From positions 1 to 64,000 of the forward strand of contig FMBT01000098.1 in assembly GCA_900095095.1 (NCBI GenBank): DNA of 64,000 nt, given 5' to 3'. The notes beneath the pieces are model-generated. The model did not search any database. It had not been told where the DNA came from and was given only the letters and a program-made list of their open reading frames with translations. Positions 50,988-54,531 of this stretch are shown here, piece after piece. This DNA is from Fragilariopsis cylindrus CCMP1102 (lineage: Eukaryota; Bacillariophyta; Bacillariophyceae; Bacillariales; Bacillariaceae). Position numbers and translations under genes: made by a program. The first letter of the stretch is position 1. Every line of letters starts with the position of its first letter.

Positions 50988-51319
50988 GATTACACCGCCT
51001 ACAAGTATCGGTGTAGTATTCCTTTCGCAATACTATACATCAGTTATTGTTATGTCTATTAAAATAAGCTCCAAGCTGCGGCCGAATAAAAATGCTCTTG
51101 TTTGTTCTCGATTTTCTTTTACGCCGGATGCAATGAATGAGTCACAGTCGTGTACGTACGTACGCGCGTAAAACTTCAAATTGCCGGTAGCACTATCTAC
51201 TAGTTATTAATTTCAAATTTAAAAATTGTAGAATAAAAATATCCACGATGCGATGGCACTACTTCATAGACACCACATTACAATTTTGCAATATTATATA
51301 AATAAATCAGTACATTGCC
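50988..51319. promoter_or_regulatory. Divergent promoter region, DUF1995/Nudix
   Basis: 332 bp between divergent ATGs. No specific element is recognised. Confidence 0.45.
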
Positions 51320-52504
51320 ATGCAAAGATTGAGCCGCATAGTACTTGGTTCGACCTTGTTAACTCTGTCTAGTACAAGTAGGACCATTAAAGGTGCCGCT
51401 GGAATCCACAATGCGGCGACTGCTTTCTTGATCAAAAACAACAATTTATCCCCTTCGTTGTCACATCCTCGTCGTCGTCGTCGTCGTCCTGGAACTGACG
51501 GGAACCATGCAATGTATCATATTTCCCAACCGCCGCTTATGATGATATCGACTAGTACTTTTGTAGACGATAATCTGAATGCTACCAAAACCAACGATGA
51601 GGAGGAAAAAAACAATGACGACAAAATTTTGCCATATATCGAAACTTCGCATAATTCTGTTACCATTAAGATACCAAATAAAAACGATGAAGGAAACGAA
51701 AATGATATCCTATTTCAACCACAATACTTCTCTACATCACTCGCGAATACTACAGTAGCTGCTCGTGAATTGGATAAAGCAAGTATATGGGTAGAAGTTC
51801 CGATGTCAAGAGCAAGTCTAATTGAAGAAATAGAAACAGCAAACTTAGGTTTCCAATTCCATCATGCGGAAGGTAGTACTGCTAAGTTGAATGCATGGCT
51901 ACGAGATGATATTCCATCGAAGATACCAGAATTTGCCACGCACCATGTAGGAGTAGGAGCGGTTGTTATCAATAGTAGAGACGAGATTTTATGCATCCGA
52001 GAACTTAGAAAGAATTATCACCCATGGAAGATCCCAACTGGACTTGCGGATTTGGGCGAATCAATCCACGATGCAGCAGAACGAGAAGTCCTAGAAGAGA
52101 CAGGGATTTCTGCGACATGCCATAGCGTATTAAGTATCCGTCACTCACATGGTATGTCTAATGGTAGGAGTGATCTATTCTTTATTTGTCGTTTGATACC
52201 AGATAATAATGAAGACAATGATGATCACGGTAATGGTGGTGATGGTAACGATAATAATATTCGTACACCCGTTCCACAAGCTTGTGAAATTGCTGAAGCA
52301 AAATGGTTGCCTTTATCAGAGTACAGAGATATGATAGATGGACTAACTGAAGATAGTAACGGTCATCCAGTTATGTCCTTTGTAATGGATGAAATTTTTG
52401 ACAAGGGAAAAGGGATAAACATGCGAGAAGTGGATAGTGTAATACCTGGACGTAGTCGAACACCACTTTACTTTCCAGACATGACAAACAACAACATTCA
52501 ATAA
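51320..52504 (+). CDS. Nudix hydrolase, NUDT6-like
   Basis: Intact 394-residue frame. An N-terminal leader (SRIVLGSTLLTLSS ... AATAFLI) and a low-complexity acidic spacer precede a pre-Nudix region (IWVEVPMSRASLIEEI, GFQFHHAE) typical of NUDT6/FGF2-antisense proteins. The Nudix box is complete: GLADLGESIHDAAEREVLEE, followed by TGI (G-x5-E-x7-REUxEExGU). An Asp/Asn/Gly insert lies after the box (about 52204-52260). It hydrolyses a nucleoside diphosphate linked to another moiety; the substrate is unknown. The leader suggests organellar location. Confidence 0.93.
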   Translation: MQRLSRIVLGSTLLTLSSTSRTIKGAAGIHNAATAFLIKNNNLSPSLSHPRRRRRRPGTDGNHAMYHISQPPLMMISTSTFVDDNLNATKTNDEEEKNNDDKILPYIETSHNSVTIKIPNKNDEGNENDILFQPQYFSTSLANTTVAARELDKASIWVEVPMSRASLIEEIETANLGFQFHHAEGSTAKLNAWLRDDIPSKIPEFATHHVGVGAVVINSRDEILCIRELRKNYHPWKIPTGLADLGESIHDAAEREVLEETGISATCHSVLSIRHSHGMSNGRSDLFFICRLIPDNNEDNDDHGNGGDGNDNNIRTPVPQACEIAEAKWLPLSEYRDMIDGLTEDSNGHPVMSFVMDEIFDKGKGINMREVDSVIPGRSRTPLYFPDMTNNNIQ

Positions 52505-53285: not shown

Positions 53286-53573
53286 TTAACGGGCACGTTG
53301 ACGCATCTTACGGCGTTTGCGTCGGAGACGTCGCATACGCTTTTTGCGCCACTTCTTACGCATACCAGAGTTGACAGCCATTCTCATGTCAAGGCTTTCA
53401 TCTTCTTCGATACCGTTGCTTTCGAGGGAACCCTCAACGAGCATATCGGAACCACGCATCAAACAAAGCATTTGAGATGGTACGAATTCAGCATTCTCAA
53501 CCTGAAGCTTTAAGGCTTCGACGGAGGTGGCAGGGTCAACCTCGTAGGCTGTGGATCCAACAAAAATTTGCAT
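53286..53573 (-). CDS. RPL41: Ubiquitin-like domain fused to ribosomal protein eL41
   Basis: One uninterrupted 95-codon frame. Residues 71-95 are a complete eL41, the tiny 25-residue basic protein of the large ribosomal subunit (MRKKWRKKRMRRL then a basic tail ending MRQRAR; human eL41 is nearly identical). Residues 1-70 form a ubiquitin-like sequence: MQIFVGSTAYEVDPATSVEA at the start, MRGSDMLVEGSLESNGIEED in the middle, ending MAVNSG. A single Gly, not Gly-Gly, precedes the eL41 Met. Ubiquitin family members are classically fused to eL40, eS31 and (as FUBI) eS30; eL41 is normally free-standing. The Ubl might act as a cleaved chaperone tag. The upstream non-coding region is AT-rich. Confidence 0.92.
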   Translation of the reverse strand: MQIFVGSTAYEVDPATSVEALKLQVENAEFVPSQMLCLMRGSDMLVEGSLESNGIEEDESLDMRMAVNSGMRKKWRKKRMRRLRRKRRKMRQRAR

Positions 53574-54531
53574 ATTGATTTTTTTAAGAGTTTTAAAAGT
53601 TTTTATAAAGGATTAGGTTGCTCAACCTAATTAATGAATAATGAATAATGAATAATTAATAATTAAAATAAAATGAAATAAAATATAAAATAAAATAAGA
53701 GGAAAGAACGAAATGGAAAAATGGCAAGGACAGAATTAGCACGAGTCGACTGATATCATTATACTACAGTTCAATCAACATACAGTGTCACTTTTAGACA
53801 TCACTCGAACATTCCATGCCGCCATTGTCGTAACTTACTTTTTTAAAGGAACATACAGCTAATCTGAGCATAACAAGTTAGAAGTTGAAAAAGAGTCATA
53901 CCAGTACCGTAACGAGAGCAACCAAAACTGCACAAACACGAACTATTTTTCACAAGCGACTACTGTACTAACTGGCACACAACCACTGTACTGTTTTTAC
54001 TGCTGTACGTAAAAACCTACAGCAATTTAGTACTGTACATAAATCAATCGTATTTAAAATTTGTGGTGGTCTGTCAATCTATCCTATAATGGACCCATTC
54101 GACTCAAAACAATTCACAAATCGAAACGAATGAATTCGAATTTCGAAGAATTGTTCGACTTTCAACTTGGTTTGCCGAGTATCGTTCTGTCTCAGCAATG
54201 GCCGTTGTTAAACGTAGATTATCATGCTTACCCCGTGGACAATGTGCGCTGCCCGGAGGAAGTGGTAGTAGAGTATATAATTGTGTTCTTCAGTGAAGTC
54301 TAACACGCCAAAGCTTCATCCAGTAGTGAGTAAGCGCCGATTCGATTATATTGATTTAATGGAAAGATATATCAAATATAGAGCACGTACATACCCCATA
54401 CTATCAAGGCAATTATGATTATCCGATTGTGTAACAGCATTGTTTCATTTATACCAAAAAATATATGACATATAATATTATCGAACGATATCAGATACTA
54501 ATCTGTACTACACTATACCCGACTAATCGAT
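53574..54531. promoter_or_regulatory. Divergent intergenic region, Ubl-eL41/J-domain
   Basis: 958 bp with A/T-rich simple sequence (AATGAATAATG and AAATAAAAT units, about 53632-53700). A plus-strand 80-codon frame at 54061-54303 is unsupported. Confidence 0.45.

Follow-up and report, generated by a model that had tools for sequence, protein, structure and literature searches.

A diverged ubiquitin-like domain joined in frame to ribosomal protein eL41 in a putative diatom genome

The central observation of this analysis is a minus-strand gene at 53573-53286 of the window (the whole 64,000-nucleotide stretch of DNA analysed), in which a diverged ubiquitin-like domain (UBL) and, behind it, eL41, the smallest of the ribosomal proteins, share a single frame of 95 codons without an intron. 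It is an uncommon counterpart of the known fusions of ubiquitin and FUBI to ribosomal proteins. We propose that the two halves are made as one precursor, in which the acidic UBL probably chaperones or masks eL41 before being cut off.

Specifically, the start ATG lies at 53573-53571, the UBL (residues 1-70, from MQIFV to AVNSG) occupies 53364..53573, the complete eL41 (residues 71-95) occupies 53289..53363, and the TAA stop codon lies at 53286..53288, all on the minus strand. Start and stop were read from the frame; the UBL is supported by its end-to-end alignment with ubiquitin, by hhalign and by codon choice, its Pfam score being below the cut-off, and eL41 by Pfam PF05162 and by a full-length match to solved eL41 chains. 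An AT-rich stretch (53574..53633, minus strand) stands immediately 5' of the first ATG, whose start context is AATCAATATGC, and the next ATG upstream is 186 bases away. The UBL tail reads MAVNSG and the junction with eL41 is SG-M. Both the 70 + 25 residue layout and this junction had been described in a first-pass annotation, and both are correct in the single intron-free frame; its coordinates also hold, but they were given without a strand, and it is the minus strand that carries the gene, the plus-strand frame at 53286..53573 being interrupted by a stop codon. GC content reaches 47% over the UBL codons and 56% over those of eL41, with 28% and 31% in the flanking 300 bases on the two sides. 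In the adjoining frame, on the plus strand at 51302-52504 of the window, a NUDIX hydrolase domain was detected (Pfam 62.4 bits).

The identity of the downstream half is clear. It matches Pfam PF05162 with 29.7 bits (cut-off 22.3), covering positions 1-23 of the 25 in the profile, and it aligns along its full length with solved eL41 chains, several of which (33-41 residues) bear short N-terminal extensions. In one solved chain of 34 residues, PDB 7ase_D, nine extra N-terminal residues end in GG directly before the usual Met, possibly by chance or possibly as a remnant of a fusion.

The upstream half is diverged. On its own it scores 14.6 bits against Pfam PF00240, under the cut-off of 25.4, and it is absent from the 65 places returned by a genome-wide PF00240 search at E 0.001. 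Its first five residues are those of ubiquitin (MQIFV), and a global alignment with the ubiquitin of the same genome runs end to end, placing Gly70 on Gly76, with 19 of 70 residues identical (27%). The score of this alignment (z 9.5) was reached by none of 2000 shuffles, and z remained 7.3 when the first five residues were left out. Against other members of the family the z values were 7.6 for human FUBI, and 5.3 and -0.7 for the NEDD8 and Hub1 of the same genome, both named by reading its frames. A comparable result was obtained with hhalign: against a profile of the genome's own ubiquitin, plastid-type ubiquitin and NEDD8, the UBL reached a probability of 83% and a score of 31.3 (best of 200 shuffles, 17.3), and against ubiquitin, NEDD8 and human FUBI a probability of 94%. 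In addition, all 13 aligned ubiquitin core positions are hydrophobic in the UBL, a count that the alignment itself favours.

Structure prediction gave models too weak to confirm the fold. AlphaFold2 run without an alignment placed strands at residues 2-5, 8-11, 35-40 and 43-49 and a helix at 18-27, and the two single-sequence models obtained (pLDDT 67 and 60, pTM 0.38 and 0.42) showed the E-E-H-E-E order of the ubiquitin fold. When the models were submitted to Foldseek, ubiquitin chains topped one list at E 0.9 and were missing from the other list of 35, and no match was significant. The NCBIfam library, made for prokaryotes, matched with none of its families. Since both the alignment and the hhalign scores lie far above those of every shuffle, the similarity to ubiquitin is well beyond chance, and we conclude from sequence that the UBL is a ubiquitin homologue, with a beta-grasp fold as a prediction only; the assignment of residues 1-70 to the ubiquitin family in the first-pass annotation is thereby supported. 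The UBL was also considered as an ortholog of FUBI and was not filed as such, the alignment favouring ubiquitin (z 9.5) over human FUBI (z 7.6).

Compared with ubiquitin residue by residue, the UBL lacks several features, the conjugation tail among them. The tail lacks RLRGG and has no di-glycine; the Ile44 patch is lost in the alignment, with Leu8 falling in a gap, Ile44 replaced by Met and Val70 by Arg; and the first hairpin is shortened by five gap columns. Six of the seven ubiquitin lysines are missing, and the single lysine present, Lys22, aligns with ubiquitin Lys27. The net charge of the UBL is -10, ahead of an eL41 tail of +18; human FUBI has a net charge of -8 and one lysine, whereas the genome's own ubiquitin has a charge of 0 and seven lysines. 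With the Ile44 patch, the RLR tail and the di-glycine lost, and with no lysine but the Lys27 equivalent, the UBL once set free probably does not function as a modifier, and its sequence would suit a chaperone or mask acting in cis better.

In its codon choice the UBL tends towards the usage of highly expressed genes. On a scale of high versus background usage, it scores +0.04 bits per codon, far above the background of 15 mechanical ORFs of at least 250 codons from the window (-0.26 to -0.43) though below every one of the five reference genes, which range from +0.20 to +0.51; background and reference sets alike were used to train the scale. The references were two histones, one longer frame found by a histone motif, Ub-eL40 and eS30. 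When the UBL was recoded by background usage, its score was reached in 0.25% of 2000 trials (P 0.0025).

Searching the whole genome (67.9 Mb in 818 contigs) detected eL41 twice, on the window's own contig, C287, and on contig C139, and the UBL is fused to it in both cases; exons were read singly in this search, so that a plain eL41 gene split by an intron could escape it. The two copies have identical coding sequences, and across 20 kb of surrounding DNA the contigs agree at 99.8% identity (8 mismatches, 26 gap openings), probably as two haplotypes or as a redundant contig. With surroundings so nearly identical, the C139 copy is not independent evidence. Beyond these two copies, the UBL was found in no other gene genome-wide.

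As for the other ribosomal partners of ubiquitin-type domains, eS30 is unfused in this genome, its frame starting MGKVHGS without a UBL, and a Ub-eL40 gene is present. No genome-wide match to eS31 (PF01599) was obtained at E 0.001, which may reflect either an intron-split or an absent gene. Further ubiquitin arrangements were observed in the same genome. At G000:C398:42072-42515 (L008), a signal-peptide-like N-terminus is followed by two tandem diverged ubiquitins, which read like diatom plastid-envelope ubiquitin, and then by a tail of no recognised kind; a similar match lies on C405. From G000:C90:675369 onward (L007), a ubiquitin one substitution different from the ubiquitin encoded by Ub-eL40 (L004) runs across a GG-KGG junction into SDE2, where a SPRY domain and the SDE2 C-terminal domain were recognised. 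At G000:C80:139147 and C237:29261 (L005, L006, L018), the ubiquitin frame continues into what reads as the beginning of a nickel superoxide dismutase (HCQVPCGIFDD), a fusion previously reported in algae (PMC6332867).

Silicon transporter matches (27 rows, counted exon by exon, the best at 757 bits), 104 light-harvesting protein matches genome-wide and the ubiquitin-NiSOD frame together fit a photosynthetic diatom. Two light-harvesting proteins tried as a pointer to diatoms were set aside, as at strict thresholds they matched only chains of PDB 9vfj. RuBisCO large subunit had no match in the genome, as expected if the assembly is without plastid DNA.

Counting for a common precursor are the single open frame, the eight AUGs ahead of that of eL41, the UBL on both eL41 matches, the codon usage, the pattern of charge and lysines, the position of eL41 beside eS30 at the decoding centre (PMC5693986) and the removal of FUBI from eS30 that 40S maturation requires (PMC8354635). 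In the mechanism that we propose, a single precursor would be made, as in the Ub-eL40 and FUBI-eS30 genes, and the UBL half would be translated first and fold. Its acidic surface (-10) could then keep the very basic eL41 tail (+18) from binding elsewhere and from entering the 40S decoding region too early. A ubiquitin-like protease would finally cut after Gly70, leaving eL41 to begin with its usual Met (precursor residue 71). What we infer in this scheme is translation as a single chain, masking by the UBL and the cut at the SG-M junction.

The junction is the most delicate point of this scheme. FUBI-eS30 carrying G73,74A or G74V is reported to stay uncleaved (PMC8354635), and the activity of USP36 is described as confined to substrates with a terminal di-glycine (PMC10611586); the MAVNSG tail may therefore be no substrate for ordinary deubiquitinases. 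The changes cited here do not include a serine at the first of the two glycine positions. The SG junction thus implies an unusual, more tolerant protease, unless the fusion stays uncut or eL41 is synthesised separately. In addition, eL41 has been described as non-essential (PMC6582356), so that a mask is less plainly needed.

Separate synthesis would mean that eL41 is made alone, either from a transcript whose start falls within the UBL or through internal initiation at Met71, with the UBL as a separate or minor product of a longer mRNA. The eL41 Met does sit in its usual place behind a junction without di-glycine, and in Giardia the annotated eL41 proved too long when the structure showed a shorter form (PMC8860606). 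Eight AUGs, however, precede that of eL41, six in frame (the UBL start included) and two out of frame, and the UBL can be recognised as a relative of ubiquitin, with codons that lean to high expression, unlike a chance upstream frame. Because of these eight AUGs, little eL41 would be expected from leaky scanning, and a cut precursor is the simplest route to it. The first-pass annotation had raised initiation of eL41 at its own Met, which is unlikely by scanning; a transcript starting within the UBL would still be a possible route to free eL41. We regard separate synthesis as an unlikely, if serious, alternative to the cleaved precursor. A weak hint on transcript length comes from Nitzschia putrida, in which the reads-to-TPM ratio of 'Ribosomal protein L41' is 2.05 times that of S28e, with L37 at 1.92 and S30 at 2.61 (PMC12547632): this suits a gene model of more than 25 codons, and untranslated regions may explain it instead.

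We consider it less likely again that the fusion stays uncut, with the UBL jutting from the ribosomal subunit interface or with eL41 having another role in this organism. SG-M is a poor junction by the standards of both FUBI and ubiquitin, Ub-eS31 of Giardia is reported to be uncut (PMC8122580), and several solved eL41 chains have short N-terminal extensions. As eL41 forms an intersubunit bridge with tight contacts at the decoding centre (PMC5693986), though, a globular N-terminal domain of 70 residues should clash there, and the comparable FUBI has to be removed from eS30 for 40S maturation (PMC8354635). Finally, a functionless upstream frame, arisen by chance or decayed, would agree with the sub-threshold Pfam score, the weak fold models without significant matches and the lack of relatives in the virus and prokaryote collections searched, but it is very improbable given alignment and profile scores far above every shuffle, hydrophobic residues at 13 of 13 core positions (in an alignment that favours them), and an intact frame with the GC content and codon choice of a translated gene.

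The search for relatives covered viruses and prokaryotes, and its outcome says nothing on other diatoms. In virus contigs, 22 stretches fitted the pattern of the UBL-eL41 protein and none was confirmed, and two eL41 DNA patterns gave no match; in prokaryote genome contigs, the pattern search returned none and the protein search gave 210 stretches fitting the pattern, none of them confirmed. As to the literature, the first-pass annotation knew of no described eL41 fusion, which no longer stands: a 2021 review mentions ubiquitin fused to eL41 (PMC8122580, Table S2), as does PMC11354881. For the domains it retained, the review set a floor of 80% identity to yeast ubiquitin, a filter by which a diverged UBL would have dropped out. 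The main text of PMC6332867, on algal ubiquitin fusions, contains none of the terms 'L41', 'S30' and 'FUBI', and among the titles and abstract beginnings covered by our literature search none names a diverged UBL fused to eL41. In conclusion, an eL41 fusion as such is not wholly undescribed; what is new here is the diverged, FUBI-like UBL, with its lone lysine at the Lys27 position, its charge of -10 before +18, its short first hairpin and the SG-M junction.

The gene bears on why a few ribosomal proteins are made as ubiquitin fusions. Were a lysine-poor, acidic UBL established ahead of a basic decoding-centre protein in another lineage, this would suggest that selection acted on masking or folding of the tail and not on ubiquitin supply. 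More tentatively, and with less than even expectation on our part, diatoms may use a FUBI-like, non-conjugating, lysine-poor and acidic ubiquitin fold to mask eL41 until late 40S/80S assembly, when a protease reading SG would remove it. In that case, a FUBI-type domain would have switched partner between eS30 and eL41, which are neighbours at the decoding centre (PMC5693986), or the same solution would have evolved twice. Promoters named rpL41, which may be those of eL41 genes, drive diatom transgenes (PMC5124317, PMC5561644), and the true start of the eL41 frame may matter in practice for such constructs.

Among known systems, the closest in design is FUBI-eS30 (FAU), described as holozoan (PMC8354635), which likewise places a diverged acidic UBL of about 70-74 residues before a ribosomal protein that is small, basic and located at the decoding centre. 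FUBI, too, has a single lysine at the Lys27 position (PMC8354635) and a deletion near its N terminus, although its deletion is of two residues (PMC10611586), whereas the UBL described here has five gap columns in the first hairpin. In contrast to FUBI-eS30, the partner is eL41 while eS30 is free in the same genome, the junction is SG and not GG, and the host is no opisthokont. Ub-eL40 and Ub-eS31 share with the present gene an N-terminal ubiquitin-type domain joined to a ribosomal protein without a linker, but they carry a near-identical ubiquitin ending in RLRGG, whereas here 19 of 70 residues are identical and the tail is MAVNSG. The ubiquitin-eL41 fusion of PMC8122580 has the same ribosomal partner and, judged by the selection criterion of that review alone, differs from the present one in its ubiquitin, at least 80% identical to that of yeast, where the UBL is diverged. 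The comparison with FUBI offers a possible mechanism and not membership, since partner and junction differ.
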